A stretch of DNA of 64,000 bases, taken from Artemia franciscana. Lineage: Eukaryota; Arthropoda; Branchiopoda; Anostraca; Artemiidae. This document shows positions 17,091 through 64,000 of the stretch, in pieces (positions within the stretch are counted from its first letter, which is position 1; each line of letters opens with the position of its first letter). The notes beneath the pieces were generated by a model. The model worked only from the letters and a program-made list of their open reading frames with translations. It was not told the DNA's origin and made no database searches. Location: NCBI RefSeq assembly GCF_032884065.1, contig NC_088883.1, positions 23,741,637 through 23,805,636 on the forward strand, given 5' to 3'. The position numbers and the translations under genes are program-made.

Positions 17091-17176
17091 TTTGACGTCA
17101 CCTGATCCAGTTTTTTCAGGTGACGTCACCTGATCCATCCACAGACAGACAGACAACTTATTTTTATATATATAGA

Positions 17177-25393: not shown

Positions 25394-28758
<3,365 letters not shown>

Positions 28759-36136: not shown

Positions 36137-36801
36137 TAAAATATATATTTGCATATGCTCAATAAAGCCTAGTATAGCGTTAATTTTATTAAAGAGAACT
36201 TTCACAAATAAAACTAACCCAAAGTTACAGTCTCGAGAACCTCCAATTTAAAAACTTCACGCTCAAAACATGCAAGAAATAAAAGACCAATAAATTAGAA
36301 AAATTCAGTGACCTTAGAGTTCAAAAGAATTTGAGGAAAACAACTTGGAAAAGCAAATTTTGGGCCTATATTTTTCAAATGTACTAAAGATTATAAAGAA
36401 CTTCAAAAGTATTTTTTTTTTACTAATCAAAGATTTTATATTATAATTTCAGTTTTTCCTTTATCCAGCTGATTGAAGATGATCATCGTATCCCTATAAT
36501 TTTTTTTTACAGTTTTTTAAGGTTATTTGTTACTTTTTGATTTTGTTCTTTTTTGTATTTCACTTTTTTGGACCAAAATCACGCAAGGGTTTCAATCTTT
36601 ATCTTTCAAGAGCCAAAATTGGCCTGTATAAAATTTGGAATAAATAAAATGGAATAAATAAAAATGGAATAAATTGAACAGAATAGTGAATTCAAAAATA
36701 ACTCTTCTGTTAGATGATATGATCTTAGCTAACATCGTGAACACAGTGTCTACTGGCTACTGCTGCAATCTATTGTTTTTAAACCTGTTTTATTTCTTTA
36801 G
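36137..36801 (+). other. RFC1 intron, nothing recognised
   Basis: AT-rich intron end. The acceptor of exon C is TTTTATTTCTTTAG with a good pyrimidine tract. A short tandem GGAATAAATAAAAT phrase lies near 36645-36675. Confidence 0.5.
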
Positions 36802-41205: not shown

Positions 41206-42330
41206 GGGATTTTATTCACCATAGTCAAAAAACCTAATAACTATGTCTTTGTGGACGACTTGCTCCCAAACAGTCCCTGTGGGAGGGGCTGCAAGTGTCA
41301 AACTTTGACCGTTGTTTGCATATACTAATGGATATTGGGAAGTGTACAAACGTTTTCAGGGGGATTTTTTGGTTTGGGGGAGGGGAAGCTGACGGGGGGT
41401 TACGCGGGAGGATTTTTCCATGGAGGAATTTGTCAAGGGGGAAGAGAATTTCAATGAAGGGGGCGCGGGACTTTCTAGTATTATTTAAAAAAAAAAACAA
41501 TGAAAAAATAAATATGAAAAGTTTTTTCCACTGAAAGTAAGGAGCAGCGTTAAAACTTAAAACGAACAGAAATTATTATGCATATGAGGGGTTCTCCTTT
41601 TCGTAATACCTCACTCTTCACGCTTAAGTATTTTTAGTAATTTCAACTATATATTCCATGACCTTTGTGATTCAGTGGTCATTCTTAAGCAATTAGGACA
41701 AAATTCAAGTTTCAGTGTAAGGAGCCAGGTATTCACGAGGCTCATTTACGTAATAAAACATACGAATATAGAAGTTTGTTACATAAGTTACGTATATATT
41801 TTTACTAATGATAGCGTTAGTAAAACATTCAAAGTTCTAGTTGCCTTTTTAAGCAATCAAAAAATTAGAGAGCAGCTTGGCCTCCTCCCTCGCTCCTTTT
41901 TCTCTCAAAATCTTCCGATTTAAACTGTGAGAAAGCCATTTAGCCAAAAACAATTAATATACAAATTTGTTTTAATTATTTATGTGCGGAGAGCAAAAAT
42001 CAAAACATGCAATAATTCAAAAACATTCAGAAATTAAATATAAAAAAACAAGTTTTTAACTGAAAGTAAGGAGCGACATTAAAACTTAAAACGAACACAA
42101 ATTACTCCGTATATGAAAGAGGCTTTTACTCCTCTACGCCCCACTCTTTACGCGAAAGTTTTTTACTGTTTTAAAAAGTAGAATTAAGAAAAATAATCAA
42201 ACTTTAGCGTAAAGAGCGGGGCGTAGAGGAGTAAAAGCCCCTTTCATATACGGAGCAATTTCTGTTCGGTTGAAGTTTTAATGTCGCTCCTTACTTTCAG
42301 TTAAAAAACTGAAAAAACTTTTTTTCTATT
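41206..42330 (-). repeat. R2 repeat (reverse) ending in foldback hairpin
   Basis: 41206-42030 is R2 in reverse orientation (compare 8682-9550). 42040-42325 is a foldback hairpin whose arms match for about 120 bases, with GCTTTTACTCCTCTACGCCC and its complement at the core. Confidence 0.75.
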
Positions 42331-43364
42331 TAATAGCGTAAAGAGGGAGGTGTTAAGGTGCAGTAGTTTTTTATTTTCATCTAATACAAGCTTAGCAGGA
42401 AGTATTACGGTAATTTACATTTGGTTAAATGGATTTATTATGTTTATTTCTATTCGTTTCCTTTTACACCATACCTTTATCATTATTTTAATATCTAACA
42501 GAAATAATATATCTTAAGATATAGTTTTACAATTAGCACCGTCAGAGACTTTAAATGACCTTAGAACAGTTTTGATATGGGTCAGACTTCAGATGCACAT
42601 CATGCTTTTTATCTTGTCTCTGCGTCTTCTTCCGTCTCCTGCGTCTTCTTCCGTCTTCTTGAATCAAGATTCAATTCTTTTGATGTATCTATCGTTATCT
42701 AAACTCTGTAACTTACAGTTTCGATTACTATTGAGCCACATCGCTCCTTTCTTACAGTTCTTTACCAGGAACTGTTTGAGAAATTATCTTTGTTTCAAAT
42801 AATCATTGACTTATTAGTTGCTCTCAAATTTTTTTAGCATTAAATTGCTATACCCAAGAAGTTGGCTCATTCAAAACTCAATAATTTCTCTACAGAAATG
42901 ACATCTGTTTTACTTACACCTAGCATTTCTAAAAAGAAACGTCCTTGAAAGAAGCTGAAGAAATTGTCGAAGGGCGTATTGTGCAGAAAGTTTAAAAAAA
43001 GAAAAATGCTGGATTTCTGAATTAGTCAAAGCTTGATTTTGTCTCTTTGTAAGGCGTGTGTAATTTAAGAAGGATTGGAATAGTGGGTAAGTCAATTGAA
43101 TTTGCTTAATTTAGTAGAGCAGATGTAGGCTATAACTTAACAAAATGTTTTCATTTGCTCATTGATCCTAAAAGGCTCAGTCCAAAACTAGCTTATATGT
43201 TCCTTAATTTGCACCTTGGAGCCACCTTAGGATCTGATCTGTGTGGATTTCAAATTTATACTGTTAAAATTGTGTTTTATCAAATAATTTGCTTGCTCAA
43301 AATTTGAATAGCCAACACCACTTCATGCATCCTTCAAAATGGATAGGCCTATCATTTACACTAA
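42331..43364. other. Unit 1 distal segment, R2 end fragment only
   Basis: 42665-42785 matches the R2 terminus (ACTATTGAGCCACATCGCTCC ... GAACTGTTTGAG). Otherwise no repeat or gene is recognised. Confidence 0.5.
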
Positions 43365-44035
43365 TCAGTAAAATTCTATTTAATTGACTTCTTGCTATCT
43401 TAGAAAGGATTTTGGTTAGGAAAATGAAACTTTCATGGATGTATCTACAGGCTAAGGTAGTTTATGTCCCAGGAAGATATGTTAAAGTACCTACCTCCAC
43501 TTCTTCTACCTCTAGAGGGCCCTGAAATTTGCCTACATGTCAGGTGAAATTTTGAATTGAAATTTTGACAAAACAACATTTTACCTTAATTTTCAGTTAG
43601 CCTAATAGTTTTTTTTCTCTGCCTTTAGTTCTGAAAATGCAATTCCTTTTATTTGAGTAGCCTTGAATTCTGAGCTGTATCAGTGTTTTTTTTTCAAAAT
43701 TTAGGAAATGTATTTGCATGTCTTTAAAACCTTATAAAATAGAGTTGAGCAAAGTTATGAAGCTGAAAACAATTTTGTTGTAGCCTACTTTAATTAAGCA
43801 GAAGATCTATTTTGCAAGGTTTTACTTTTATAACACACATATTTGTACAGGTCATCAAAGGTCAGGGCCCTCTAGAAAGAGAAGGAGAGGAGGAAGTTGC
43901 TTCAAAATACCTTCCCAGTTCCTAGGACATACTTTAGTCTGTAGATTCATCCCTGAAAGTTTCATTTCCCTAACCTAAACCCTTTCTGAGATAGCAAAAA
44001 GTCAATTAACTAGAATTTTACCCACTAATCATTAT
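43365..44035. repeat. Diverged foldback element
   Basis: The arm 43365-43545 (ATTGACTTCTTGCTATCTTAG, then GAAACTTTCATGGATGTATC, then TCTAGAGGGCCCTGA) pairs with 43860-44035 in reverse, with many mismatches. The loop is about 320 bases. It has no coding content. The level of divergence suggests an old insertion. Confidence 0.7.
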
Positions 44036-44889
44036 GTTTGCAATTTTGACCCAGCCCTTCCTCCTAATGGGGCCAGATATAGACTGTATAAGTAGTATAT
44101 ATGACTATCAGTTATAACATCATACAACTTAATAGGCAAGGCTAGTAAGGGAGCTCAGGGTTGTTTAGGACACAGGTTGGCTTTGATACTGCCATTACAA
44201 GAGGCCATTCTAAGAAATGTCCTAAATGCCACATGAACACAAGAATGTATCAAAACTTCTTCTCCAAAAGAATTGTCAATGACTAGAATTCCCTCTCTGA
44301 GTCTACAGTGTCAGCAACTTCACCTATTACTTTCAAGAAGTCACTGGATAACAAGTGGTCATGCAGGAACTAGAAATACTGCTTGCAAGATTCAGATCAG
44401 TTACAGATGTCAGTCATCATCACTCACAGAGCAACACAGATCCATTGGACCTTATTGCTCTGAAGTGCAAATTAAGATCATGCCTTTTCTATGCTCTTTC
44501 CTTTTTTCATCCTAGGAAATAAGGGCACAAGCTTCAATAGAGCTGGATGAATGCATTCCTGAGGTGAGAACAGTGCAATTTCCATCTAATCCTCCAAGGC
44601 AACATGTCAAGATAAGTTAAAGGGCTTCAACAAAGTGTTTATGGGGAGATTACTTGCTAACCTTACCTTAGTCTATGCCTAATACCAAATCCCTCCAGAC
44701 CATGTTTGGCACATCTACAAAACAGGGGTCCCAACTCTATTACCTACTCCTAGAGTGCTTGCCCAGAAGGACTAGAGGCAAGTGGCCTTGACAACATCAG
44801 CAAAATATTCTCAAAACATGACCATGGTATCTTTTATGTGATACCATGTAGGTAAACATAACATGTTTATGTGAACCAAGTAGACTACT
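44036..44889. other. Nothing recognised
   Basis: Single-copy-looking sequence before the transposase relic. It may include the diverged 5' part of that transposon. The frame at 44273-44515 has no recognisable features. Confidence 0.45.
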
Positions 44890-45640
44890 TCTGTTTTTAT
44901 TGTTAAAGGGTTGATTTCCAATCACAGATGCAGAAATATAGGTCACCTGGGTACTTTGGAATTAGTTTATCTAAGTGGTCATATTAATTCTGAATTTTCT
45001 GTGAAGACCATGAAACATTTTTGTAAAGCACACCAGATCATCAAAAGAGACCAAACTTTACTGTTGCTAGGTAATCATGACAGTCACTTGGACATCCAAG
45101 TAGTCAACTACTGCAAAGAAAATGAGGTATTCTTAAATATCTCCCAACCTCACTGCTTGCATCTCTTGTAACTCTACAGACAATTCAAATAATGATGAGA
45201 AGTAAATTTAATGAGTGGTTGAATCTTTGTCCAGGGCAATGAATCTCCATATGTGAAATAATAGAACTCAGCCATGTTCCATAACATAAGAAGTTTAGTA
45301 TGGGTAATATTATGGCTGGCTTTAGAAAGCCTGGACTATGGTCATTTGACTACAACACTTCCTTCTGTGCTGAATTTTCTGCTGCTTCAATTTTAGATAG
45401 TCAATTGCTAGACAGCCATTCTCAACTTGCCCAGCCAGACCAGGGTGCTAACAAAACTAAAGAGCCTTCTGTAGTCTTCTCTGTAACTCTTGAGCAGGTA
45501 AGACCATTTCCCCATATGCCACTTACAGTTACCTACGGTAGATGAGTAAAACAAAGAGGAAGAACTAGAATACTTACAGGAACGCTAGAAAAGGAAGAAC
45601 TAGAGCAACTAAGTTCTAAAACTTGGTCAATCTACCTGAG
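44890..45640 (+). pseudogene. pogo/Tigger-type DDE transposase, C-terminal half, dead
   Basis: Pieces in three frames. First, FSVKTMKHFCKAHQ, then LLLLGNHDSHLDIQVVNYC and PHCLHLL (44911-45171), matching the DDE_1 core LLLLDNH-SH ... PHC-H-LQPLD. Then KFNEWLNLCPGQ and NIMAGFRKPGLWSFDYN with VTLEQVRPFP (45300-45530), the region after the DDE core where such proteins have a GF-K-G-PF block. Last, KQRGRTRILTGTLEKEELEQ (45553-45615). The catalytic Asp of DNH is Gly here, the LQPLD end is replaced by a stop, and at least two frameshifts occur. These transposases cut and paste DNA transposons; this one cannot. Confidence 0.8.
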
Positions 45641-46163
45641 ATTTTAGGCAGTGGACTGGATGCTTGTTTTCCTGTGATTCCCTACAACTTAATGCTCATG
45701 TGTCAGTTCTAAAACTTTGTCACCCTGCATGAGACTCTTGATTGGCATACCTATGTAAAAGCTAACATAGAAGTATTTGTCTAATAAGAGAGTCATGGCT
45801 ACTCACACCGTTTACCTAATCACTTAAGAAACTATAGGTATCCCCATTTGCCTGTGTGTCCAGGGGACTTGTTGGTTATATGTTGAACCTAAAACATGGT
45901 AGTCCACTTGAGACATTAAGTGGGTTATCCTGTTAGGTCTTGGTTACTAGTTTGCCTGTAAATCCATGTGAATTCAGTCCCCCTTTATTATATCAGTCTA
46001 GTCAACATAGTCCATCATCAGAGTCCTGTCCATCTCTTGAGTCCTGGTTGAACTTCGTTGAAGTAAGGATGCTAAGGCTATTTTTAAAAAAAGTTTTAAA
46101 AAGTGTTTTTAATTATTCAGTTTTTAATCCTCACAATTTGATGTAATTTCTTTTATATATATA

Positions 46164-46330
46164 TATAGTTTCTCTCTTATTCTTGTATTGTGCTGAAGAC
46201 GGCCATTGGACATAGGGCCGAAATATCTACAGAAATAATTTCCACTGTCTTAAAATTTTCCCTATTGTCCCTACATTGTATTTGTTTGTTATGGAAAGGC
46301 AGTGTGGTCTTCTTTGCTATTTTAGTGATA
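46164..46330 (+). repeat. GAAGACGGCC...GGCCGAAA repeat, fuller copy in unit 2
   Basis: Reads GTGCTGAAGACGGCCATTGG, then ATAGGGCCGAAATATCTAC, then continues into CCCTACATTGTATTTGTTTG, which the reverse copy at 15095-15262 also has. Unit 1 has lost this continuation. Confidence 0.5.
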
Positions 46331-46639
46331 TGCTGAAAAAACAGAACTGATACCATTGAGCAGACAGGGGGCAAAGGCCCTTCCAGACCCCAGTTTACCC
46401 CTTCCAGACTCCAATATCATCCCCAGCTGAAATTTAGTTTCTTCAATTAGAATAGTTTTGCAAATATATTTTGCTTAACTGAGAACAATAAGTTTTGTTT
46501 ATTTGAAATGTTTGTTTGCTTCCATAAGAAAAACTTTTTTCTTAAGATTAATTTTTTTTTTCTTTTTTTTTTTATTCTGAATAAACACTAAACCTTCCAC
46601 CCAACGCTTTGTATAACTTAGGTGATGAAACTAAAGAAG

Positions 46640-47230
46640 GCATCATAAAAAAAATCACCCGGAAGTAATGAGTAGCATTAAAACTTAAAACGAACTTTGG
46701 GGAGGGTGTGTGGGTCAGATATTCAACCTTTGTTTCCTAGGGGGAGGAGGTTGTAATCGGGAAACACGCATTTTTAGGCCAGTAAATAGCTATTTTATCA
46801 GGGAAAATGTTTCCTGAAACTTTACAGGGGAAGCGATCCTTTCTTAACGTTTCAATTTAAGCTAAATATGGTCCCCGCAGATCTATGGACCTGGTCGGAT
46901 CCAGCATTCGCTCCCGAAATACTCCTCCGAACACAAGTTTGAGCTGCCACATAGAAAGTACAAAATTTTGTACTTTCGCTCCCGAATATACTCCCTCATG
47001 CAAAAGTTTGAGCAGCCATATTGAAAATACAAAATTTTGAATTTTTTGGACAATATTTTTGAAAAATACAATTATGAAAAAGATGGTTATCTCAAAATTT
47101 TGATCGGATACATTGGGAAAAAATGGGGTGGGTGATATCTTGTTGCCCTTCAACCACTTTTGACTCTTATAAACAGCACTACAACTTTTAACTTGCAGTC
47201 TAATGAGCCACCTCCAAAGTTTATACAGCT
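46640..47230 (+). repeat. Left inverted arm, unit 2
   Basis: Same as 17340-17930, with a few substitutions. Its right partner at 49715-50000 is shorter than in unit 1 because of a deletion next to CTCCCTATCTTTAAAAAAAT (about 49690). Confidence 0.65.
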
Positions 47231-47363
47231 ATCTCTTCCATAAAAAGAGCCTCTAAAAAAGATAATAGTACATTGAACCCTTTTGGCTTTTTACTATAGG
47301 CAACGCTATAGCATTACCTCTGACTTAAACAGGTGAGTATAAATTTCAATTTTACTACTACTA

Positions 47364-48796
47364 CTAATAATAACTCACAGCAGCATCAAGCCGCCTGAGG
47401 CCAACACAGCTACGCACGCTCCTCCTCCAACCCAATCTATTCAAGGCCTCCCTCTTTAGACCCTCCCAGAAAGTTCCCATTTGATTTAAATCTTTATTCA
47501 TAATATCCCAACCCAGACGAGGATGACCTGCTTTCCGTGAAGCCCCAGACGGTTGGCCAAAAAGGACAATCTTCGGCAATCTATCATCCTTCATCCGTAG
47601 AACGTGGCCTAACCATCTCAACCTTTCTTTCATTATAGCCCTAGAAAACGGGATTGAACCGCATTCTTCGTATAGCCTACCGTTTGAAACACGGTCAGTC
47701 AGTCGGGTACCCAGAACAATCCGTAGGCAATTTCTGTGGAAAACATCTAGTAAATTTTCGTCTGCTTTTCAGAGCGTCCATGCTTCAGAGCCACATTTGA
47801 CCACTGTCATCACTGTAGATTCCAATATTTTAATCTTGGTTTGCAGACTTAACGTGGCCTAACCATCTCAACCTTTCTTTCATTATAGCCCTAGAAAACG
47901 GGATTGAACCGCATTCTTCCTACCGTTTGAAATACGGTCAGTCAGTCGGGTACCCAGAACAATCCGTAGGCAATTTCTGTGGAAAACATCTAGTAAATTT
48001 TCGTCTGCTTTTCAGAGCGTCCATGCTTCAGAGCCACTGTCATCACTGTAGCTTCCAATATTTTAATCTTGGTTTGCAGACTTATCTTCCTATTCTTCCA
48101 AACTTTTTTTAACTGTGAAAAAACGCCCTGAGCCTTAGCTATTCTACTTTTAGCATCTTCACTGCTCCAACCGGCTTTACTAATAATACTACTAAGGCAA
48201 GTGAAGCTGCCAACCTGATCAATCTTTTCGTTACCCAACGTCACCTTTTCAACTTCACTTATTCCTAGCCTTAGTGACTTAGTCTTCTTAATATTAATTT
48301 CCAAGCCTATTCTAGCACCCTGAACTCGCAAAAGCTCTAAAAATTCATTCATTTTGCTCACACTTTCATCTAATATTCTTAAATCATCAGCATAATCTAA
48401 GTCCAGGAGCGTTTTTCCTCCCCATTTGATTCCGTGGTCTCCAATTGCCTTTCCTGTGTTCCTTAAGACGAAGTCCATAAAAATGATCCATATAAAGGGG
48501 GAATAGAACACAACCCTGCTTAACTCCTGATTTAATACAAAATCAGTTGCTAACCTCATTTCCTACCCTAACCGTAGCAGTATTATTCTCGTACATAGCA
48601 CAAATCACTTTAATGTATTTTTCCTGTATACCATATAAGGATAAGACTCTTACTAACGCTCTTCTATCAACAGAATCGAGAGCTTGCTCATAATCAATAA
48701 AAACTGAGGACCGAAGGTATTTGACAACGAAGGGACTTCTCAATTATTAACTAAGAGTGAAAACTTGGTCGACACATAAATTTTCCTTCTAATTAA
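47364..48796 (-). pseudogene. RTE-like RT fragment, unit 2 copy
   Basis: Counterpart of 18063-19497. It keeps LLDLDYADDLRIL and the C-terminal block at 47364-47633, with the same internal tandem duplication. It differs by small indels: one extra G near 48499 changes the frame so that the fragment 47990-48559 stays open longer, nine bases are missing near 47918, and about eight bases are missing near 48038. Confidence 0.85.
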
Positions 48797-50579
48797 CTTC
48801 CAAAATTATCCAGGGGTTATTTTCCGGGAGGCGAATTTTTGAAGGAGAACTTCCCGAGGAGGTATTTTTCCCAGGGAAGAATTTTCCGGGGGGACATCTA
48901 GACCTGGGCCTGGTAGTTAAATCAAGCAGAGAAAAAGAGATTGATCTTCTATACTTCCATGTTAAAAAGTGAGTTTTTCTTTCTTTTTTGTTTATTTTCG
49001 TCAAGCCAATTCGTCACCTTTTTAAACATAATCACAGATTTCATAGCAAAAAACAAGTTAATAAAAGTACTCCTAATTCACTTTGTATCAAAGTGGAGGA
49101 GATACATTTAAGCAAGTTGGCTATCTATATGTCACGACTGTCCCTGTATGGATGAAAGTATCTCAGTACCCCCACCCCCCCCCAAAAGAAAAAACCCTCC
49201 CGACTTTTCTGGCCAAGTTTGTTTTCAGAGAACCACCACCCTCCCAAATACTGGAAAAATATAGTGAGTCCTATGTAATTTTATCCCTGTAGCGAGCGAA
49301 GAGTAAATACTTTTAATTTCTTACACCACAATACCTTTCCATTTTGAATTAAATGAATGGAAATGTAATAAAAGGTACATTTATTTTCAATACTATTACA
49401 ATTTAGTTAGTATGTTACATTTAACCACTTTACCCGTCGTTGTATTTTCAATTTTGTGTTGTTAGTATACAAAAAATTTAGAAATTTCGTCTGTGTTTTA
49501 TCAATTTATAACAAATACTGCATTTTGTTTTTTACTTTCATAATTAATATACTAGTACAAATTATACCTTCAAAATTCCGTAGCCATAACAGCAAGTTTT
49601 GAAATTATTACTTCAAGACCACAAAGGTTTACTTTGGTGACATTTTAACTACTATACCTAAGTACACCAGTGGGGAAGGATCTCCCTATCTTTAAAAAAA
49701 TCTTTAAAAAAAAATACAAAATTTTGTACTTTCTATGTGGCAGCTCTAACTTGTGTTCGGAGGAGTATTTCGGGAGCGAATGCCGGATTCGGCCAGGTTC
49801 ATAGATCTGTGGGAACTATATTTAGCTTAAATTGGAACGTTAAGACAGGATCGCTTCCCCTGTAAAGTTTCAGGAAACCTTTTCCCTGATAAAATAGCTA
49901 TTTACTGGCCTAAAAATGCTCGTTTCCCGATTACGACCTCCTCCCCCTAGGAAACAAAGGTTGAATATCTGACCCACACACCCTCCCCAAATACGCTTCT
50001 TGGACCTTATTCGAAAACAAAAAACGAGTTAATATCCCTCGTCCTTTATGGTAGAGATATTTCTTCGACTCATAATAGATGTGCCACCACCATCTCAAAT
50101 TTTTCTACCTTCTTTAGCATTCACCTACTTCTGCTAGATGATTTCCAAATTTTCAAAGGTACCTGAAAGGTTATCGTTCGAAGACAACCTGTCAATGTAC
50201 CCTTGCTGGTCATAAAAATGCAACCCTGAGGTAAAATTTTACCTACGGCTCAGGTACCAAAGCCTCCCAGCATTTTTTATTTATGTATTAAATTACTTCT
50301 CAGAAGCCAGGTTTCTCTGTTACACTGAGAGTCACTTTCAAACGGGTTTTAATTGAAGAAACGGAGCACTTTTCACTTTTGTGATTTCGTCGTTGACACT
50401 TTAATTTAATTTTGGATTTGGGCTAGAGACCCGATGCCTAAGAACGCCTCATTCGAGGGAGGCGGTATGTCTTTCCTTGTTTTCAATGACAGGTGTGAAA
50501 TGGAAATTTTGATTAACAGAATGTTTTCTATTGTTTCGGCTAATCTTAAAAGTAATTAAATGAGATAAAAACTTTTTTT
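48797..50579. other. No gene; right inverted arm at 49715-50000
   Basis: Counterpart of 19498-21639. No feature beyond the arm is recognised. Confidence 0.5.
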
Positions 50580-51845
50580 TATTTGCAAGTAAGGAGCAAC
50601 ATTAAAATTTAAAACGAAGAGAAATTATTCCGTATATTAAAGGGGTTGTCCCCTCCATAACGCCCCGCTCTTTACGCTAGAGTTTGACTCTTTCTCACAG
50701 CTCTACTTTTTAAAACAGTAGAAAACTTTAACGTAAAGAACGAGGCGTTGTGGAGGGGTCAACCTCTCTCATATACGGAATAATCTCTGCTCGTTTTAAG
50801 TTTTAATGTCGCTACTTACTTGCAGTTTAAAAAAAAACTTGTTTTTTTTTATTTAATTTCTGAACGTTTTTGAATTAATCCAAAATTTGATTTTGGCTTA
50901 CCGCACATGAATAATTAAAACGAAATTTGTCTCTTTTTTTTTGCTAAATGGCTTTCTCATAGTGTTAATCAGATGATTTTGATAAGAAAAGGGCGGGGGA
51001 GGAGGCCTAGTTGCCATCCAATTTTTGGTTACTTAAAAATGAGACTCGATTTTTTATTTTATTTTTTTACGAACGTTTTTGTTAGTAATAAACATACGTA
51101 CCTTGCGAATTACCTTACGTAACGAACTTCTATATTTGTGTCTTTGTATTATGTAAATGAGGGGGTTTTCCCCCTCGTCAATATATCACTCTTTGCACTA
51201 AAGCTTGAATTTTATCCCAGATCTTTAAGAATGACCCCTGAATCACAAAGGCCGTAAAATAAATAGTTGAAATTACTAAAAATACTTAAAAGCGTAAAGA
51301 GTAAGGTATTGTGGAGGAGAAAACCTTCTTTTACATGTAATGTTTTATGTTCGTTTTAAGTTTTAAGGCTACTCATTACTTCCATGTGATTTTTTTTTTT
51401 TTTTACTTATTTTCTCATTGTTTCTTTTTAAATAATGCTAGAAAATCCTGCCCTCCCTTCATGAAAATTTTCTTCCCTCATGATAAATTCCTCCATGGAA
51501 AGATCCTCCCACGTAACCTTCTCCCCCGACCCACTCCCACCCCAACGCGGAAAAGTCTCCCCGAAAACGTCTGTACACTTCCTAATAACCATTACTATGG
51601 GTAAAAAATGGTCAAAGTTTGTAACTTGCAGTCCCTCCTCCGGGGACTGTGGGGGATTAAGTCATCCACAAAGACATAGTTATTAGGTTTTCGACTAAGC
51701 TGAACAGAATGGCTATCTCAAAATTTTGATCCGGTTACTTTGGGGAAAAAGTTGCGTGGGAGGGGGCCTAGGTGCCCTCAAATTTTTTGGTCACTTAAAA
51801 AGGGCACTAGAACTTTTAATTTCTGTTTGCAGCAGTAGCTGCAAC
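50580..51845 (+). repeat. Foldback hairpin plus R2 repeat, unit 2
   Basis: Counterpart of 21640-22870. 50580-50865 is the hairpin. It retains CTTCATGAAAATTTTCTTCC (51459-51478), lost in unit 1. Confidence 0.7.
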
Positions 51846-53114
51846 CTAGTAAAGAGCAACCCACAGCCCATAGTAACCAAAAGTTGAAAAGCGCGTTTTG
51901 AAATAAAATACCTAATGATGAAAAAAAAATGACCATGTGACATTGATTCGGGATATTAACTATTATTTCGGTATATCTTAAAAGTAAAAGTTTATCGTGA
52001 AAACAAATTTATAGTGATTTCGAAAAAGAGCCTGAAACCCCTCAAAAATGGCGTCAAATCAAAATAAAGATTGCACCATTGGAATCAGTATGGTTAAAAA
52101 CTTTGAAGTAACTTGAGTTCCCCACCTTGAAAAACAATAAAAATCATTTTTTACATGGGTAGTAATGATGTGTCATATAGCGATCACAAATTCTGTCTGT
52201 CTGTCCCGGTTTTGCTAGTTTGGGCACTTCCAGATAAGCTAGGACGATTAAATTTGGCAGGCATATCATAGACCGAACCATATTAAATCAGAAATAGTCG
52301 TTTCTCCGATTCTACCATCTGGGGGAGGGGAGTGGGGGGACAGTTAATTCGGAAAAATTAGAAAATGAGGTATTTTTAACTTACGAATGGGTAATTGGAT
52401 ATTCATAAAATTTTATATTTAGAAGGATAAATCCATAAAGGAATAGTACTGGCCAGGAAAGTACGCGGGAATAAGGGGCGGTGACGGTTTCAAGATGCCC
52501 ATCCACAACGTGTGCTTGCCCTATCATTGTTACTCCCTAATGACTTTCTAGGGAAGGTCGAATAAAGAAGATCACGTCCTATTGGATTCATAAACCAGTT
52601 ACGGTTTATGTCTAAATACGTTTCAGATCAGATCTTAAATTTTTGTCGGAAAAGTAGTGACCTGTAGCTTCAATGTTTCCGGGTTAACTATTGACGTTGA
52701 ATGTGTAACCACGGAGTATTAAACGGAGATAGCATAATGAATACTACAGAAAATGCCTGCGTTTTTCAAGTTCTTTAAATTTAAGATGTTGATCGAATAT
52801 GTCAGGTAATTTTTTTTCCTGAATTCAGGCTTTTAGAAATGCTGGCTGCTTGCCTCCTCCCTAACTAACTCCTCTCTAACCTAACCTCCTAACTCCTCCT
52901 TAACTCCCTAAATGATATTCATGCTATGATGATGTGTACACTTTTCTTCCAAAACGAGGAAGGGACTTTGAGATTCTCAGGGTCTTGTAGTGGCACCGTG
53001 GGTTTAACCTCAGCTTGGTAATACGAAACCCAGGGTTTGAACTCAGCCTCAACATACTGAAATATAGAAAATTCAAATTTATCGCGTTTTTTAGTTGTTG
53101 TCATTTCTTTTTAG
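51846..53114. other. R1 fragment at 52160-52440, otherwise nothing recognised
   Basis: Counterpart of 22871-24157. A stretch of about 20 bases near 52701 (ACAATATGTTTGTTTTGTGT in unit 1) is missing. Confidence 0.5.
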
Positions 53115-53328
53115 AATCTCTGGTAGCAAAAGAGCAGTGAATTTGGACTACATTCAGTATATAAGGGACGCAGTCACTAGGCCTCTGATAAAAGAGGGTA
53201 CAGATGGTGTAGAAAAGTCAGTTGAGGCTATGACATCGTATGATTTGATTCGAGAAGATTTGGGTGATATTTTATCTTTGACAACCTGGCCTGGAAGGAA
53301 AGATCCTATGAGCCAAGTGGAAGCTAAG
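53115..53328 (+). CDS. RFC1: RFC1 exon A, unit 2
   Basis: Identical to the unit 1 exon except that the codon before the last is GCT (Ala) instead of ACT (Thr). Acceptor and donor are the same. In a true tandem duplication this exon has no upstream RFC1 exons of its own, because unit 2 starts within the preceding intron. It would then be a 3' fragment unless transcription reads through from unit 1. If the units are two haplotypes, it is simply an allele. Confidence 0.8.
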
Positions 53329-53963
53329 GTTAGAAAATTATCAGTTGTTAGACTTTTAGAAAGAAGAAGGCTATGATTTGGATATACTCTAGGGACCTTT
53401 GGACACAGTGCTCACTTGTTTTTTTACTGTTTGTACTCCCCATCTCCCCTCAATACTTCTCAATTTTACTCTACCTTCCCTTCCTCAATAAAAACATATT
53501 TTTGCTATTATTATTAACCTGAACCTGAAGCTTAAACGTTACTTATATGTAGGGCTGGGGTCCTTGGAAGTGCCCCACAGTATACATTTCCACCCTTTTT
53601 TTTTCCCTTTGTATAGGAGATAGGCCGTTGCTAAAAGCTAGACGAATAGTTCATCTTTAAAGATCAGGAACCCAATCTTTTTCTAAAATATTTAAGACAT
53701 TATCACAATTTATTTTGTTTATCAATAATGAGACATTCAAATATTCTGCCACCTTAACCCTAAAAGGTACACATCAAGATATTCTAGCTTTGTATATGAC
53801 ATAAAATCCTCTTCAACGGACCATTTTGCAAAAACTGAAACATAAGTTTCCATTATATAATTTAATATTAATATGGCATAACATAATGTTATATGTTACA
53901 CAATATTGTTTAAGGTTTATGTTCATTGTTGAACTTTCTTATGTTATTTTCTACTCTCCTACG

Positions 53964-54116
53964 CAAGGCCGTATCCAGTGTGTGTTGGGGGGGGGGGATT
54001 TTTGTCCGACTAGCAAAAACGTAACAAAAATCTATATGAAAAAATTTTGTATATTTTTTATTGTAGCCCTCCCCTCCCCCCCCAAAAAAAAGAAGAAAAA
54101 TCTTGGATACGGCCTT
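53964..54116. mobile_element. MITE with 14-bp inverted ends, unit 2
   Basis: Same as 25009-25158, with small changes in the C and A homopolymers. Confidence 0.75.
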
Positions 54117-54375
54117 GATCCTATAGTTTTAATGTATCAACGAAAGGCAACACTTTTGCTTTTATTCTATAGTCGAAAGTTGGCTATCCTTCTGGTGAAT
54201 TGCATTTTCGAAATTTAGAGTATATTTTTTTTTTAGATTTAAAATAGGATTAATATTAGCTGAAAATTGTTGAAAAAAAGACAATATCCCTTTCTTGTCC
54301 TTTTGGTGCAAACTATATCTGATTGTCGCAAAAACGTTTTTTCTGAGGGAACATATACATATATATATATATATA

Positions 54376-55813
54376 CTAGCTGTTGGGGTGGCGCTTCGCG
54401 CCACCCCAACACCTAGTTGGTGGGGGCGCTTCGCGCCCCCCCCAAGCCCCCCCGCGCGCGTAAGTCGTTACGCGCCATTGTAGTTGTGTCCCTATGTTAT
54501 ATAAACTTGCGAATATACAACATTCTTTGCTGTCCCATTGTCTTTGCATATAAATAGATTGTCAGGTTATCCCCCTGTTTCCCCCGGTGTCCCCGTTGTA
54601 GTTGTGTCCCTGTGTCCCGGTCGTCATTTATATTCCCTGTGTCCCGGGTCCCGGTCATCATTTGTATCCCGGTGTCCCGGTCTGTATATACATTCGTTTT
54701 TTAGTTTTGTTTTTCTCCTTTATTTTTTTCCTTTTTTTTCTTTTTTAGCTTATTTAGATTTTTAGATTTTTTAGTTTTTTTTATTAGTTTTTAGTTTTTA
54801 TTTCTTTTTAGTTTTTTTGTCCCGGTCGTCATTTATATCCCCCTGTTTCCCCCGGTGTCCCCGTTGTAGTTGTGTCCCTGTGTCCCGGTCGTTATTTATT
54901 TTTTAGTTTTTTACCTTTTTTTAGTTTTTTTAGTTTTTTAGCTTTTTTATTTTTTTTATTAGTTTTTAGTTTTTTTGTAGTTTTTGCCTTTTTTTTAGTT
55001 TTTTTTAGTTTTTTAGCTTTTTTATTAGTTTTTAGTTTTTTTTGTAGTTTTTGCCTTTTTTTAGTTTTTTTAGTTTTTTAGCTTTTTTATTTTTTTTATT
55101 AGTTTTTAGTTTTTTTTGTAGTTTTTGCCTTTTTTTAGTTTTTTCAGTTTTGACGTCACCTGATCCAGTTTTTTCAGGTGACGTCACCTGATCCACGATC
55201 CACAGATCCACAGACAACTTATTTTTATATATATAGATAGTTTTTTTTTTTTTACTTATGTCCTGGTCGTCATTTATACTCCCTGTGTCCCGGTGCTTTG
55301 TTGATTGCTAATCGAACATTCCTTTTGTCCTGGTCGCTTTCTCTTTGAGTGTCGTCATTTATTAGTTTTTTCCTTTTTTTTTTTTAGTTTTTTATTGGTT
55401 TTTACCTTTATTTTAGCTTATTTTTCAGTTTTTTCCTTTTTTTTAGTTTTTTTTTATTTTTTATTTTTTTTATTTTTTTACCTTTTTTTAGTTTTTTTAG
55501 TTTTTTTAGTTTTTTAGCTTTTTTACTTTTTTTATTAGTTTTTAGTTTTTTTTTGTAGTTTTTGCCTTTTTTTAGTTTTTTCAGTTTTTTTTTTAGTTTT
55601 TTATTGGTTTTTACCTTTATAGTTTTTTTAGTTTTTTAGCTTTTTTATTTTTTTTATTAGTTTTTAGTTTTTTTTTGTAGTTTTTGCCTTTTTTTAGTTT
55701 TTTCAGTTTTGACGTCACCTAATCCAGTTTTTTCAGGTGACGTCACCTGACACATCCATCCACACATCCATCCACACATCCACAGACAGACAACTTATTT
55801 TTATATATATAGA
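54376..55813 (-). mobile_element. Helitron composite, left arm of palindrome
   Basis: Read on the minus strand, it starts TCTATATATATAAAAATAAG type at 55813 and ends with two hairpin+CTAG terminators (CTAG at 54413-54416 and 54376-54379). A second 5' terminus at 55237 splits it into 55238-55813 and 54376-55237. It holds TGACGTCA pairs, the T-rich array and the GTCCCGGTCGTCATTT minisatellite. It lies in the intron between exons A and B of unit 2. Confidence 0.85.
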
Positions 55814-55817
55814 TATA

Positions 55818-57302
55818 TCTATATATATAAAAATAAGTTGTCTGTCTGTGGATGGATGGATGGATGTGTCAGGTGACGTCACCTGAAAAAACTGGATTAG
55901 GTGACGTCAAAACTGAAAAAACTAAAAAAAGGCAAAAACTACAAAAAAAACTAAAAACTAATAAAAAAAATAAAAAAGCTAAAAAACTAAAAAAACTATA
56001 AAGGTAAAAACCAATAAAAAACTAAAAAAAAAACTGAAAAAACTAAAAAAAGGCAAAAACTACAAAAAAAAACTAAAAACTAATAAAAAAAGTAAAAAAG
56101 CTAAAAAACTAAAAAAACTAAAAAAACTAAAAAAAGGTAAAAAACTAAAAAAAATAAAAAATAAAAAAAAACTAAAAAAAAGGAAAAAACTGAAAAATAA
56201 GCTAAAATAAAGGTAAAAACCAATAAAAAACTAAAAAAAAAAGGAAAAAACTAATAAATGACGACACTCAAAGAGAAAGCGACCAGGACAAAAGGAATGT
56301 TCGATTAGCAATCAACAAAGCACCGGGACACAGGGAGTATAAATGACGACCAGGACATAAGTAAAAAAAAAAAAACTATCTATATATATAAAAATAAGTT
56401 GTCTGTGGATCTGTGGATCGTGGATCAGGTGACGTCACCTGAAAAAACTGGATCAGGTGACGTCAAAACTGAAAAAACTAAAAAAAGGCAAAAACTACAA
56501 AAAAAACTAAAAACTAATAAAAAAAATAAAAAAGCTAAAAAACTAAAAAAACTAAAAAAAGGCAAAAACTACAAAAAAAACTAAAAACTAATAAAAAAGC
56601 TAAAAAACTAAAAAAACTAAAAAAAAGGCAAAAACTACAAAAAAACTAAAAACTAATAAAAAAAATAAAAAAGCTAAAAAACTAAAAAAACTAAAAAAAA
56701 ACTAAAAAAGGTAAAAACTAAAAGAACTAAAAAAGAAAAAAATAAATGACGACATCGACCGGGACACAGGGAATATAAATAACGACCGGGACACAGGGAC
56801 ACAACTACAACGGGGACACCGGGGGAAACAGGGGGATATAAATGACGACCGGGACAAAAAAACTAAAAAGAAATAAAAACTAAAAACTAATAAAAAAAAC
56901 TAAAAAAGCTAAAAATCTAAATAAGCTAAAAAAGAAAAAAAAGGAAAAAAATAAATTAGAAAAACAAAACTAAAAAACGAATGTATATACAGACCGGGAC
57001 ACCGGGATACAAATGATGACCGGGACCCGGGACACAGGGAATATAAATGACGACCGGGACACAGGGACACAACTACAACGGGGACACCGGGGGAAACAGG
57101 GGGATAACCTGACAATCTATTTATATGCAAAGACAATGGGACAGCAAAGAATGTTGTATATTCGCAAGTTTTACGTAGTTAAAACCATATATATATATAT
57201 ATCTATATTCACAGGTGGGACATAGGGACACAACTACAATGGCGCGTAACTATTACGCGAAGCGCCCCCACCAACTAGGTGTTGGGGTGGCGCGAAGCGC
57301 CA
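55818..57302 (+). mobile_element. Helitron composite, right arm of palindrome
   Basis: Starts TCTATATATATAAAAATAAG at 55818, with a second 5' end at 56379. It is the near reverse complement of 54376-55813, including the same subdivision. The 3' part is partly deleted: the GC-rich stretch after GCGCGTAACTATTACGCG is shortened, and the final hairpin is cut at GGCGCGAAGCGCC, where RFC1 intron sequence resumes. The last CTAG is therefore missing. Confidence 0.85.
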
Positions 57303-58896
57303 GTCCATTGCAAAAAAATGATAATATCTACTAACAATTGTTTATCCTGATTTTTGTTTAGGGGGAGAGGTATAGAAAAAAGCTTTAAAAACTCGTCAAA
57401 AATTAGTTTATATGCTTTTTTGTTACGTTTTTATGAGCTTGAAATTTTTTGAAGGGAGGGGGTCTAATTCGACCACCCCTGGATACTGGCTTGTCTCCTA
57501 ATACTGCTTACATTTCATTGTAGTGCCGAACCAATTTACACCGACACAACTACGCAATAACTCCTCCGTCCTAACCTACTCAAAGCTTCACTCTTGAATG
57601 TACCTCCTATGAAGTTGCTGTTTCCTTTGAATCCTTTCTCACGACCTTTTCCCGTCCCAATGGAAGGATGTCCTTCTCTGTCATGGAACAGGTGGAGTAG
57701 CAAAGCAACCATGCTACTTGAAGTTTTTAAATTTGTTGGTAGATTTTGTCCAAAAATACCATTTTTAAACATAAAAATACTTTTTGCTCAAATAAAAGCT
57801 GTTAAAACACATGTTGTGCTGCTAAAAGTCTGCTAAAGTGTTGCTGCTTAGTCGCTTTCCAATCATTTTCGACTATTACAAAGGGCAATAGCCCTTTCGG
57901 TTCCTAATCAAATAAGCCGTTTTCAAAGTTTCTACGACAACTCCTTCGATACATAGTGCCCTGGCCTAAAACAAAAAAAAATACATTGCGCCCACATCGC
58001 TCTTTACTTAGGCAGCGCTATTGCGCTGCATATGATATGCTAAGACAAACAAAAAGGCAATTCTAAATGACGTTTGCTGCGGCTTTTCTTTCTTTCTTAA
58101 CAATTTGATGGCGCTATTTTTGCTGTTTGCGTTCTGACAGGCATAACAGACCGATTTATTAATAAAAGTATGTGTTATTTGCTGTACACATTATATGTGT
58201 GCATATAAAGTGTCAATACAGAGGGGAGCTCAAAATCTAGGAAGATAACCCTCCCTGGCTCATCCATTGAGGTGCTTGAATAGGAGAACTAGCATCCAAG
58301 AGTCTTACGATTAAAGAGCATACGATATTTCTCTGACTCAAACTCACTTTGCGTCAGAGAAATATCAAAGCTGATTGAACATGCGTTTAAGTTATCAATT
58401 GCCAAAAAGTGCAATGATTAGCATCTTAAAATCCTTAATTTGTAAAACTTAGCCCTCTCATCTTAATATTTCTTTCATTGAAGCCCTAAAAGGGGGAATC
58501 GGAGCATAGTTTTTGTTTACAATTTATTATTTGATACACGATCGTTTCAAATCTTGGTTTTTTCATTGTCTAGCAACCTCTCTTTTTTCTTTTTTTGTTA
58601 TCGGGAAAAATAGTGGGTCTTTGTTCATTTATCAAAGTGTTCAGTTATTTCTCTAACCCAAGAAAAACGAACGAAAAAAGAGAAAAACACGGAAGGAAAA
58701 AGAACAGCTTCTTTTATGCATATTGCAACAAACATTATAAGCTGGTTAGGAAAAAAGAGTGGAAAAAAGGAAAAAGAATATAACAAGTATAAAGATAAAA
58801 TAGTCAATAAAGTATAAAAGTAATAAGAAAAACGAAAGAAAAAGAGAAAAACACGGAAGGTGAAGGAACAGCTTATTTTTTATTTCTCTAACCCAG
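57303..58896 (+). other. RFC1 intron, unit 2
   Basis: Counterpart of 33461-35055, with the same MITE-like and retroelement 3' fragments (minus strand, 57536-57612). Nothing else is recognised. Confidence 0.5.
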
Positions 58897-59083
58897 GTGA
58901 AATCTGCATTCACTCGGACCTTTAATAAAGAGGGACACCTTACCCCCTATGCTGATATGAAAATGTCTAAAGTCAGAGGAGGTGGTGGTTTCGCCACTGA
59001 AGGGCTAGATGAGGAAGGCATGACTGCAGAAGAAGAAGAAGCTCTTTTAGAAGAAGATGAAGATGAGGATGATCTGAAAAAAG
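58897..59083 (+). CDS. RFC1: RFC1 exon B, unit 2
   Basis: Three substitutions relative to unit 1: HLTPY instead of HLTTY, YAD instead of YAN, and a silent GAT for GAC. The P form agrees with the RFC1 sequence I remember from vertebrates, so unit 2 looks ancestral at this codon. It has the same A6 run (59077-59082) and the same out-of-phase donor at 59084. Confidence 0.8.
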
Positions 59084-59287
59084 GTTTTTATTTTCCCTTA
59101 TTTGGTTTTACTCTTTCTTATGTAGTGGTACTGATTTGGTTTTTAACGTTTGAAGTTTTTGCTTTTAACATTTTTACCAGTATATTAGTACGTGGATTTT
59201 TAGTAAAACTCTAGTATAGCCGTTAGTTAGGCAAATGTAAATCTCAAAAATAAAACCACTAAATTGTATATATTTTTTTATTATATA

Positions 59288-59978
59288 TCTATATACATAA
59301 AAATAAGTTGTATGTTTGTGTGTTTGTGCGCATATGACGTCATTATAAGTATATAAGGCTTTGTATATAACGTCATGATAAGTATATAAGGGGGCGATTC
59401 AAAGAGAAATTTTAGTATAAATCCTACAATAACAGAAGAAAAAGCCAAGAAAGCTGCTCAAAGAGCTAATGCCAAAAAGCTCTTGGCTAAAAGAGAAAGT
59501 AACAAAAGAAAGCGTGCCGAGGAATCACAAGAACAACGTGAAAACCGGCTTGCGGCTCAAAGAGAAATTACCAAAAAAAAACATGCCGAGGAATCACAAG
59601 TGCTACGTGAAAACAGGCTTGTGGCTCAAAGCGAAATTACCAAAAGAAAGCGTGCCAAGTAATCACAAGAGCAACTTGAAAACAGGCTTGCTGCTCAAAG
59701 AGAAATTACCGGAAAAAATCATGCCGAGGAATCACAAGAACAGCGTGAAAATAGGCATGCAACTCAAAGAGACAATGCCAAAAGTAAGCGTGCCAAGGAA
59801 TCAGGTACAGTCCAGTCGATGATTATAACTTGAGTAGATGTGTTTCGCCTCAGGAAAAGTTAAACTTCCTCAACTGGCTGCACCACCAGAGCCATTGAAA
59901 ACTTTGCTTACTGGAACTACGTCAGAACCTAAGCGTTTTTTTTTATTAAACATCAGAAAATGCCACACCAACAGCTAG
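59288..59978 (+). mobile_element. Small Helitron in RFC1 intron, unit 2
   Basis: Counterpart of 35447-36136, with the same TC and CTAG ends. The 23-residue-repeat frame is better preserved (HAEESQ where unit 1 has HAEKSQ) but also contains the TAA within the third unit (about 59660). Confidence 0.85.
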
Positions 59979-60645
59979 TAAAATATATATTTGCATATGC
60001 TCATTAAAGCCTAGTATAGCGTTAATTTTATTAAAGAGAACTTTCACAAATAAAACTAACCCAAAGTTACAGTCTTGAGAACCTCCAATTTAAAAACTTC
60101 ACGCTCAAAACATGCAAGAAATAAAAGACCAATAAATTAGAAAAATTCAGTGACCTTAGAGTTCAAAAGAATTTGAGGAAAACAACTTGGAAAAGCAAAT
60201 TTTGGGCCTATATTTTTCAAATGTACTAAAGATTATAAAGAACTTCAAAAGTTTTTTTTTTTTTTACTAATCAAAGATTTTATATTATAATTTCAGTTTT
60301 TCCTTTATCCAGCTGATTGAAGATGATCATCGTATCCCTATAATTTTTTTTTACAGTTTTTTAAGGTTATTTGTTACTTTTTGATTTTGTTCTTTTTTGT
60401 ATTTCACTTTTTTGGACCAAAATCACGCAAGGGTTTCAATCTTTATCTTTCAAGAGCCAAAATTGGCCTGTATAAAATTTGGAATAAATAAAATGGAATA
60501 AATAAAAATGGAATAAATTGAACAGAATAGTGAATTCAAAAATAACTCTTCTGTTAGATGATATGATCTTAGCTAACATCGTGAACACAGTGTCTACTGG
60601 CTACTGCTGCAATCTATTGTTTTTAAACCTGTTTTATTTCTTTAG

Positions 60646-60759
60646 GTGAAAACTAAGCCACGAAGCAAAAAAACTGAAGGTGATTCGACAAGCAAAGGCA
60701 AAGGCAAGGTAACTCAGGGTGGTAATAAACCTGCAAGAGGAAGAGGAAGAGGAAAATAA
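60646..60759 (+). CDS. RFC1: RFC1 terminal exon C, unit 2
   Basis: Identical to 36802-36915: basic tail ending ARGRGRGK and TAA at 60757-60759, after the acceptor ATTTCTTTAG. Confidence 0.78.
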   Translation: MKTKPRSKKTEGDSTSKGKGKVTQGGNKPARGRGRGK

Positions 60760-61449
60760 GATAAATAAACACATGTAACTTTTTGGCTCTGTGGATTTAT
60801 TGATAAATTGTATTTTAAGTTTTTCACCAATTTGTCTAATTAAAAAGTTCGAATTTTAAAAATTTCAAAATGTAGGGAAGCGATGCAGCATTTGGTAATT
60901 GGTAAATAAACTAGCCGCAAAACCCACTGTACAAGAGGTTTAGTGGCAACATGTTAAAAAATCTGAAGACTGCAATTAGATTTAAACTTCTTTTCCGCTG
61001 GTTAAGTTAGGTGATCAATATTTTCATAAACACCTCCAGGTGGGGGGGGGGGCTGACGTATGAAAGAAATTGTTATAAGAATAACTTATTTTTTCCCAGA
61101 TGGTTACAAAGTATGCCTTTTCTAAATTGTTGGTTTTCTAGAGGGGATGACCTCTCCCCCTCGAGGGCTCTTTCAAGCTGGTTTTGCCATGATTGTTTAT
61201 TAGTAAATTATTCCAGAGTAGCGCATTCAGATCTCAATTTAACTAAGACTGCAAAATAAAGAATTAAGATAGCTTATAAAATTAGTTTATTACTGGTTTA
61301 TCTTAATGCTTTAATCGTCAGGTAGTGAAATATCCTGGACGTTATTTTTTGTTTCCCGTTTCACTTGTGTATGAGCATGCGCTGGAGTATGAAAGATGTG
61401 TTTAATTTCATTTTACTGTAGACTTCTGTAAAAAAAATAGTATACTACT
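60760..61449. other. 3' flank of RFC1, unit 2
   Basis: Counterpart of 36916-37610. No gene is seen. Confidence 0.5.
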
Positions 61450-62962
61450 ACTGCTACTACTATTAACAACTCACCGCATCACCAAGCCGTCTGAGGCTAA
61501 CAGAGCTACGCACGCTCTTCCTCTATCCCAATCCGTTCAAAGCCTCCCTTTTTACATCCTCCAAGAAAGTTTCCATTTCCTTTAAATCTTACTTTATGAC
61601 GTCCAACCACCCCAGACGAGGACGACCTTCTTTCCGTTTAGCCCTAGTTGGTTGGTCGAAAAGGACAATCTTTGGCAATCTATCATCCTTCATCAGCACA
61701 ACGTCCCAGAGCAATTTCAACCTTTCTTTCGTTATAGTCCTAGAAAGCAGGATTGAGCCACATTCTTCGTACAGTCATTTGTTCGACATACGGTAAGTAA
61801 GTTGGGTATCAAGATCAAACCCTAGGCAATTTCTCCAGAAAACAACTAGCAAATCTTCATCCGCTTTTCGGACCGCTGTCTGTCATCACTGTAGCTTCTA
61901 GTTTTCTAATCTTGGTTGGCCGACTTATCTTCCTATTCTTCCAAGTCTTTTTTAACTGTGAAAAAAACATCCCGAGCCTTGGCTATTCTACTTTTAATAT
62001 CTTTACTGCTCCTACTGTCTTTACTAATAATGCTACCAAGGTAAGCGAAGCTGCCCACCTGATCAATCTTTTCGTTACTCAAGGTCAACTTTTCATCTTC
62101 ACTTATTCCTAGCCTTAAGGACTTGGTCTTATTAACATTAATTTTGAAACCTATTCTAGCACCCTGAACTCGCAAAACCTCTAAAAGTTCATTCATTTTG
62201 CTTTCATTTTCATCTAGGATGCTTAAAGCATCAGCATAATTTAAGTCCAGGAGAATTTCTCCTCCCCATTTGATTCTGTGCTTTCTTATTGACTTTCCTG
62301 TGCTCCTTGTGACAAGATCCATCAAAACCATCCATATTAAGTGGAATAGAACACAACCTTGCTTAATTGATGATTTAATACAAGACCAGCTGCTAACCTG
62401 ATTTCCTACCTTAACCAAAGCAGTGTTATTCTCGTACATAGCACTGATCATTTTAATGTATTTGTCTGGTATACCATACACGGATTACCTGGCTTACCAC
62501 ACAAGGACAAGACATTTGCTAAATATCTTCTATCAGAAGAATCGAACGCTTGCTCATAATCTATACAACTGAGGACCAAAGGTGTTTGACAAGTAAGGCA
62601 CTTCTCAATTATTAACCTACAAGTGAAAATTTGGTCTACACATCCTCCACCTTTTCTACCTTTACCTTCACCTCCACCTTTTCTAAAACCGCACTGCTCT
62701 TCTCTTACAACTTTGTCTACAACATCTCTAAGTCTAAAAAGTATCATATTTCTAAGCAATTCGCTACCTAATTTTTTTCTAAATTCCTAATTCCTTTTCT
62801 TATACAGTGGTTTAATTAAGGTTTTCCTAAAATCTTTAGGTACCTCCGCTATTTCAAAAATCTTATTCATAATTTTCTACAGCTTTTCACCATAGTCACC
62901 ATATTTAAGAAACTTATTTACCCCAGTATCAGCCCCTAGATCCTTATATTTTTCTAAGTTTT
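61450..62962 (-). pseudogene. RTE-like retrotransposon relic, unit 2, 5' half deleted
   Basis: Counterpart of the 3' part of 37611-40420. It has the same YADA in place of YADD. SCIDYEQAFDSSDRRYL at 62448-62759 is less damaged than in unit 1. The deletion joins TCCTTATATTTTTCTAAG to GGATTTTATTCACCATAG at about 62960, removing the endonuclease half. Confidence 0.85.
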
Positions 62963-62964
62963 TA

Positions 62965-64000
62965 AGGATTTTATTCACCATAGTCAAAAAACCTAATAAC
63001 TATGTCTTTGGGGACGACTTGCTCCCAAACAGTCCCTGTGGGAGGGGCTGCAAGTGTCAAACTTTGACCGTTGTTTGCATATACTAATGGATATTGGGAA
63101 GTGTACAAACGTTTTCAGGGGGATTTTTTGGTTTGGGGGAGGGGAAGCTGACGGGGGGTTACGCGGGAGGATTTTTCCATGGAGGAATTTGTCAAGGGGG
63201 AAGAGAATTTCAATGAAGGGGCTTGGGACTTTCTAGTATTATTTAAAAAAAAAAAACAATGAAAAAATAAATATGAAAAGTTTTTTCAACTGAAAGTAAG
63301 GAGCAGCGTTAAAACTTAAAACGAACAGAAATTATTACGCATATGAGGGGTTCTCCTGTTCGTAATACCTCACTCTTCACGCTTAAGTATTTTTAGTAAT
63401 TTCAACTATATATTCCATGACCTTTGTGATTCAGTGGTCATTCTTAAGCAATTAGGACAAAATTCAAGTTTCAGTGTAAGGAGCCAGGGATTCACGAGGC
63501 TCATTTACGTAATAAAACATACGAATATAGAAGTTTGTTACATAAGTTACGTATATATTTTTACTAATGATAGCGTTAGTAAAACATTCAAAGTTCTAGT
63601 TGCCTTTTTAAGTAATCAAAAAATTAGAGAGCAGCTTGGCCTCCTCCCTCGCTCCTTTTTCTCTCAAAATCTTCCGATTTAAACTGTGAGAAAGCCATTT
63701 AGCCAAAAACAATTAATATACAAATTTGTTTTAATTATTTATGTGCGGAGAGCAAAAATCAAAACATGCAATAATTCAGAAACATTCAGAAATTAAATAT
63801 AAAAAAACAAGTTTTTAACTGAAAGTAAGGAGCGATATTAAAACATAAAACGAACACAAATTACTCCGTATATGAAAGAGGCTTTTACTCCTCTACGCCC
63901 CACTCTTTACGCGAAAGTTTTTTACTGTTTTAAAAAGTAGAATTAAGAAAAATAATCAAACTTTAGCGTAAAGAGCGGGGCGTAGAGGAGTAAAAGCCCC
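62965..64000 (-). repeat. R2 repeat (reverse) and truncated foldback hairpin, unit 2
   Basis: Counterpart of 41206-42241. The hairpin starting at about 63795 is cut by the window end in its second arm. Confidence 0.75.

Follow-up and report, generated by a model that had tools for sequence, protein, structure and literature searches.

Two opposite Helitron insertions into one TA tract as the likely origin of a 5'-5' palindrome in an RFC1 intron of Artemia franciscana

Helitrons of Fusarium oxysporum are described, in the relevant passages of PMC5148889, as having multiple 5' termini, and one element is inserted 2 bp upstream of the 5' part of another. The insertion of copy into copy, opposite orientation included, is drawn there as a source of composite elements. 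Adjacent Helitrons of maize have been explained by consecutive insertions, with the AT formed by a host A and the 5' T of a resident element as a possible target (PMC2267711, in its account of the pair). Head-to-tail tandem arrays of Helitrons are cited in passages of PMC5876387 and PMC2267711. With regard to target choice, excerpts from three reports give A/T targeting without duplication for Helitrons (PMC5876387), an AT preference for wheat Helitrons (PMC13286980) and, in Pleurotus ostreatus, frequent landing in AT-rich regions that already hold other Helitrons (PMC4289320). At the level of titles and abstract openings, no count of 5'-5' Helitron pairs was found in the literature, and the 5'-terminal string of the family described below has no match in literature text.

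The window (the whole stretch of 64,000 nt of Artemia franciscana DNA that was analysed) contains a palindrome at 54376-57302, in which two Helitrons of opposite orientation have their 5' ends turned towards each other, with a 4-bp TATA spacer (55814-55817) in between. An earlier note on this DNA had described such a pair, centred at about 55815, and both the inverted repeats and megablast bear this out. Inverted repeats of 485, 400 and 327 nt, the longest three (93%, 99% and 96% complementary), join the palindrome halves in register, and in megablast 54895-56722 aligns at 97.5% with its reverse complement over 1,846 columns. The sequence at the centre is AT-rich and perfectly palindromic. A 24-mer of the Helitron 5' terminus has 13 matches in the window at up to 3 mismatches (0.00 expected). 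Each arm also has an inner 5' terminus (TC), located by sequence, inverted repeats and the 24-mer scan at 55236-55237 on the minus strand (left arm) and 56379-56380 on the plus strand (right arm); the positions given earlier, 55237 and 56379, stand as stated.

The left arm (54376-55813, minus strand; limits read in the sequence) is a complete, non-autonomous element belonging to the dominant Helitron subfamily, deleted at a block termed D1 and carrying the short form of a second block, D3. It has a 3' CTAG (54376-54379), a 5' TC (55812-55813, GA on the forward strand) and a 3' terminal hairpin on the minus strand (TTGGGGTGGCGC..GCGCCACCCCAA; 54383-54409, read in the sequence), and a TA tract adjoins its 3' end on the outside. 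At 54380-54440, this 3' end shows two consecutive hairpin-plus-CTAG ends, ACCAACTAG then AACAGCTAG, an arrangement present in the subfamily; it gives the impression that a further 3' terminus was acquired downstream of the original one. The right arm (55818-57302, plus strand) is a Helitron of another lineage that is undeleted at D1. It is without the terminal 13 bp present in the left element, and from 57303, which pairs with 33459 in the paralogous flank, the sequence is that of the host. Both elements begin TCTATATATATA and so have the canonical Helitron 5' TC. The canonical 3' end, CTRR with an upstream hairpin, is present in the left element and missing from the truncated right one. The palindrome junction is 5'-5' and not the head-to-tail CTAG|TC join of a rolling-circle tandem. 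As 54376-57302 contains no ORF of at least 110 aa, both elements are non-autonomous and neither carries a Rep/helicase.

The earlier placement of the palindrome in an RFC1 intron is upheld by the flanking exon stretches. Two of these (24138-24416 and 35023-35370), translated and joined by hand as one query, match 6vvo_A (Replication factor C subunit 1; E-value: 2.1e-24), and the palindrome sits between their second-unit counterparts at 53095-53373 and 58864-59214 (exon limits approximate). The region 15560-42241 matches 45926-64000 in blocks (97.4-98.8%; megablast), giving tandem units with the 3' part of the RFC1 gene that differ by 0.87-1.70% in substitutions. The array extends beyond the window: locus L050 aligns at 98% with 42242-44197 and with 44192-46424, and its end aligns with the start of the unit as well (15560-15799). 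Taken together, 15560-64000 and L050 hold a tandem array in which the last RFC1 exons are present in at least three units, similar at 97.4-98.8%; it could be either a true duplication or uncollapsed assembly haplotypes.

A second 5'-5' Helitron pair lies in the window at 28758|28761, the paralogous intron site of the first tandem unit. Its left member (25639-28758, minus strand) has three tandem 5' units and no matched 3' end, and its right member (28761-30143, plus strand) has a complete 3' end (CTAG at 30140-30143). This pair, 25639-30143, belongs to other lineages than the palindrome and has outer TA tracts of 248 and 88 bp. Palindrome and second pair are alike in blocks at 75-92% (megablast), against 97.4-98.8% for the flanking blocks; unit-wise, substitutions amount to 8-9% in the outer units and 6/344 in the inner unit. 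The young left arm of the palindrome most likely arrived after the unit duplication. It was also considered that the second pair is the same event as the palindrome, carried through the duplication, and an older event at the site may be shared.

Other mobile elements are found in the window. Degenerate matches to the 5' and 3' termini (2 and 3 mismatches) occupy equivalent places in two units (35451-36142 and 59292-59984) and perhaps represent an older Helitron that predates the unit duplication. A minus-strand PIF1-like helicase fragment in 1-2207 (PF05970; E-value: 1.1e-51), between 5'-terminus matches at 705 and 2184, is likely the remnant of an autonomous element. A LINE-like element, with domains for endonuclease (PF03372) and reverse transcriptase (PF00078), adjoins the second Helitron pair at 30393-33443 and is interrupted by a stop at about 32502.

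According to the portion of PMC11492255 that reports genome composition, Helitrons make up 8.81% of the Artemia franciscana genome. Across the 1,270,528,402 bases searched (1.27 Gb in 6,468 contigs), there are 28,969 exact family 5' ends and 26,604 exact family 3' ends of one type. Two family patterns have no exact match in viral contigs, and one pattern has none in bacterial and archaeal genomes. A 578-bp query from the left-arm outer unit gave 486 candidates, 40 of which were scored (one being the window itself) and the 39 others fetched; these 40 copies were picked by likeness to the left arm rather than drawn at random from the whole family. The scored outer-unit copies are 98.8-100% identical (n = 40), so that near-identical arms need no local duplication. 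A 3' end was found in 38 of the 40, at 1,438-1,455 bp in 36 of those 38; by motif search, these 36 ends of normal length are CTRR with a hairpin, and one reads CTGG. The inner 5' terminus is present in all 39 fetched sister copies: the composite previously regarded as an already tandem insertion is the usual unit of this subfamily, and no local tandem event took place at the palindrome.

The arms differ in length (left 1,438 bp, right 1,485 bp). Their alignment has 17 substitutions in 1,381 aligned bases (3/559, 5/334 and 3/389 by segment) and gap blocks of 12, 18, 41, 43 and 26. Two blocks, both placed by alignment and marker scoring, serve as lineage markers: the long form of D3 (approximately 56713-56773, plus strand) is absent from the left arm, and D1 (approximately 57172-57220, plus strand) has been lost from the left arm and from the subfamily to which it belongs. 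When the 39 focal copies were scored with one edit allowed, the left-arm D1 deletion was found in 36 and the short D3 form in all 39, and no focal copy had the right-arm form at either marker. Counting every family copy inside the 39 loci, there are 50 instances of the undeleted D1 form, which is also present in locus L048 and in the first-unit plus element. The long D3 form has no occurrence across the 39 fetched loci and is possibly private to the right arm. With this form absent and the best other 3' match (40 of 436 candidates scored) reaching only 86-87% over 44-590 of 590, no source copy of the right arm was found. The left arm has a private change of its own, a contraction of a repeat kept by 38 of the 39 sisters.

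Because the D1 deletion is common to the left arm and 36 of 39 dispersed sisters, it predates the arrival of the left arm; and as the right arm is undeleted at D1, the arms are of different lineages. The sequence evidence thus says that the right arm stems from a lineage without the D1 deletion and that neither arm is a copy of the other. Over the 22 blocks at which the arm alignment differs, the left arm has the majority state of 42 other copies (39 focal and 3 secondary) at 19, and the right arm at 3.

The family targets TA tracts. Of the 40 copies, 35 have an A and 5 a T immediately before the TC, and all 38 copies with a 3' end have a T immediately after it. TA runs of 8 bp and longer adjoin 32/40 copies, compared with 1,251/8,000 control AT sites from the loci of these copies; within the window, 285 of 5,135 AT sites touch such a run. 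A related minus-strand Helitron at 15800-17176, in the first tandem unit, is absent from two other units, where the TA tract is uninterrupted. Canonical A|T insertion without visible target duplication was seen in the sister copies and in 15800-17176; a duplication of a few TA bases would be invisible inside a TA repeat.

Simple insertion had been said not to be expected to yield head-to-head dimers, but 5'-5' junctions recur. The 150 bp upstream of each focal 5' end were searched for neighbours in the 40 copies: there is an opposite 5' end in 11 (window included), a same-orientation 3' end in 5 and neither kind in 24. Beyond the 3' end (38 copies), there is a same-orientation 5' end in 13, an opposite 3' end in 3 and neither in 22. 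The 11 sampled 5'-5' spacers measure 4-96 bp; three of them consist of TA only, five are TA runs with a terminal TCT or TCTA and the remaining three are other short AT-rich sequences. Matching pieces between the partners are 74.7-99.2% identical. The earlier note had proposed a genome-wide search for other 5'-5' junctions and would have taken a blank as a refutation of its reading; with exact patterns, the search returned 118 with spacers of 0-7 bp (control 0). Six have a spacer of 0, and 31 match the palindrome in the TATA spacer and in the 16 bases to either side of it.

Junctions of the other types were counted genome-wide in the same way. There are 237 3'-to-5' junctions with TATA and 1,450 with spacers of 0-7, no 3'-3' junction with a TATA spacer and 76 3'-3' junctions with spacers of 0-14 (several of which look like local duplicates), figures that are counts and not rates because the patterns differ in length and strictness. 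Of 100 listed 3'-to-5' junctions, 53 are, by hand count, direct CTAG|TC joins, and none of 50 listed among the 76 3'-3' places has a spacer below 7 bp. Close 3'-3' pairs thus seem to be without short spacers, unlike 5'-5' pairs. Tandems outnumber inverted pairs, perhaps since a tandem can multiply as a unit. Out of 32 nearest neighbours, 24 are 5' ends (binomial p = 0.007), so random orientation alone leaves some of these counts unexplained. The census of spacers at 5'-5', 3'-5' and 3'-3' junctions, in a genome with some 29,000 exact 5' ends, bears on the TA context that is needed on each side of a target.

Very probably, the palindrome arose when two Helitrons, related to each other but distinct, inserted in the ordinary way and in opposite orientations into one (TA)n, the right 3' tip being lost afterwards. 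The proposed course of events, whose order we infer, is as follows. A plus-strand element would have entered between A and T of a (TA)n microsatellite. Later, a minus-strand element of the now-dominant subfamily would have entered the TA stretch beside the 5' end of the resident (TCTATATATATA), leaving TATA between the two. A small deletion would then have taken the 3' tip of the right element together with the TA tract beyond it. An AT in (TA)n is its own reverse complement, so that an element can enter in either direction without any special intermediate. At a resident 5' end, the host A and the T of the TC form an AT, which makes a zero spacer possible; at a resident 3' end, CTAG|T offers no AT directly at the junction. 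If a target had to lie in TA context, this would account for the presence of close 5'-5' pairs, with their TCTATATATATA ends, and for the lack of close 3'-3' pairs. The apparent anomaly for rolling-circle transposition is thereby removed, a self-complementary target and a TA-rich 5' terminus being sufficient for 5'-5' pairs. Several observations count against the two-insertion reading: no empty or half-filled allele of the pair was seen, the long D3 form and a close 3' match of the right arm did not turn up among the copies examined, the left arm is the odd one at 3 of the 22 differing blocks, substitutions between the arms are few, and the excess of 5' ends among nearest neighbours goes beyond random orientation.

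A variant of this reading, in which gene conversion after the two insertions made the inner 900 bp or so of the arms alike, is unlikely, though it has the best standing among the alternatives. The inner segment has few substitutions (3/559), whereas D3, D1 and the 3' repeat differ, and the divergence of the arms is similar to or below that of the tandem units (0.87-1.70%). Conversion is not needed for this likeness, as unpaired outer-unit copies are equally similar (98.8-100%).

It is improbable that a single insertion was duplicated in inverted form, by template switching or by break-repair fold-back at the AT-rich 5' end. Such an event would account for the pairing of the arms (97.5% over 1,846 columns), the inner 5' terminus in both and the perfect AT-rich palindromic centre. 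The right arm cannot have been copied from the left, however, as it keeps the D1 block lost genome-wide in the left arm's subfamily, and the left arm was not made on the spot from the right, since its D1 deletion and short D3 are common to 36/39 and 39/39 dispersed copies. Moreover, the inverted matches stop inside the elements, and the host flanks have no inverted homology. A template switch would also leave exclusive older variants shared by the arms; instead, the left arm groups with the 39 sisters at D1 and D3 and the right arm does not. The replication intermediate, template switching and inverted duplication put forward earlier are all at odds with the different lineages of the arms at D1.

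The last two alternatives have very little probability. If the Helitron machinery itself produced a 5'-5' dimer, as a replication intermediate or an aberrant circle, and this dimer inserted whole, the recurrence of the junction class (118, spacers 0-7) would fit, but the 11 sampled spacers vary from 4 to 96 bp, the partner pieces are 74.7-99.2% alike and the palindrome arms are of different lineages. An assembly error or fold-back chimera is just as hard to credit: palindromes and TA tracts are often misassembled, but the arms carry different diagnostic states, so that neither is a mirrored read of the other, and there are many similar junctions with varied spacers, including another pair at the paralogous site.

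The earlier suggestion that the intron transcript would form long dsRNA holds as a prediction. RNA folding of 54376-57302 gives a predicted -2231 kcal/mol, with 1,372 of 1,389 pairs running across the arms and a longest unbroken helix of 376 bp. If transcribed, inverted Helitron pairs would be natural sources of dsRNA in host introns. A more tentative and rather doubtful extension is that the 5' end acts as a landing pad for this TA-seeking family, and that the many resulting inverted pairs, some of them intronic, give dsRNA that feeds silencing of the family.

The closest described systems share parts of this arrangement. As in Fusarium oxysporum (PMC5148889, in the passages on composites), there are multiple 5' termini and self-insertion in either orientation. 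The Fusarium elements described there are non-canonical and have other termini, whereas those of the palindrome are canonical (TC...CTAG), use a TA-tract target and come with a genome-wide count of 5'-5' junctions. The maize pair likewise consists of two neighbouring Helitrons from consecutive insertions, but its members are head-to-tail and dissimilar according to section 8 of PMC2267711 (head-to-head according to its abstract), while the palindrome is 5'-5' with long, similar arms. The tendency seen in the cited part of the Pleurotus ostreatus report is the same, with general AT-richness as the target there and (TA)n microsatellites here. Head-to-tail arrays have their counterpart in the 1,450 3'-to-5' junctions (spacers 0-7) of the Artemia franciscana genome. 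Such tandems can come from rolling-circle transposition and can move together; a junction of the 5'-5' type, in contrast, would lie outside any one 5'-to-3' unit.
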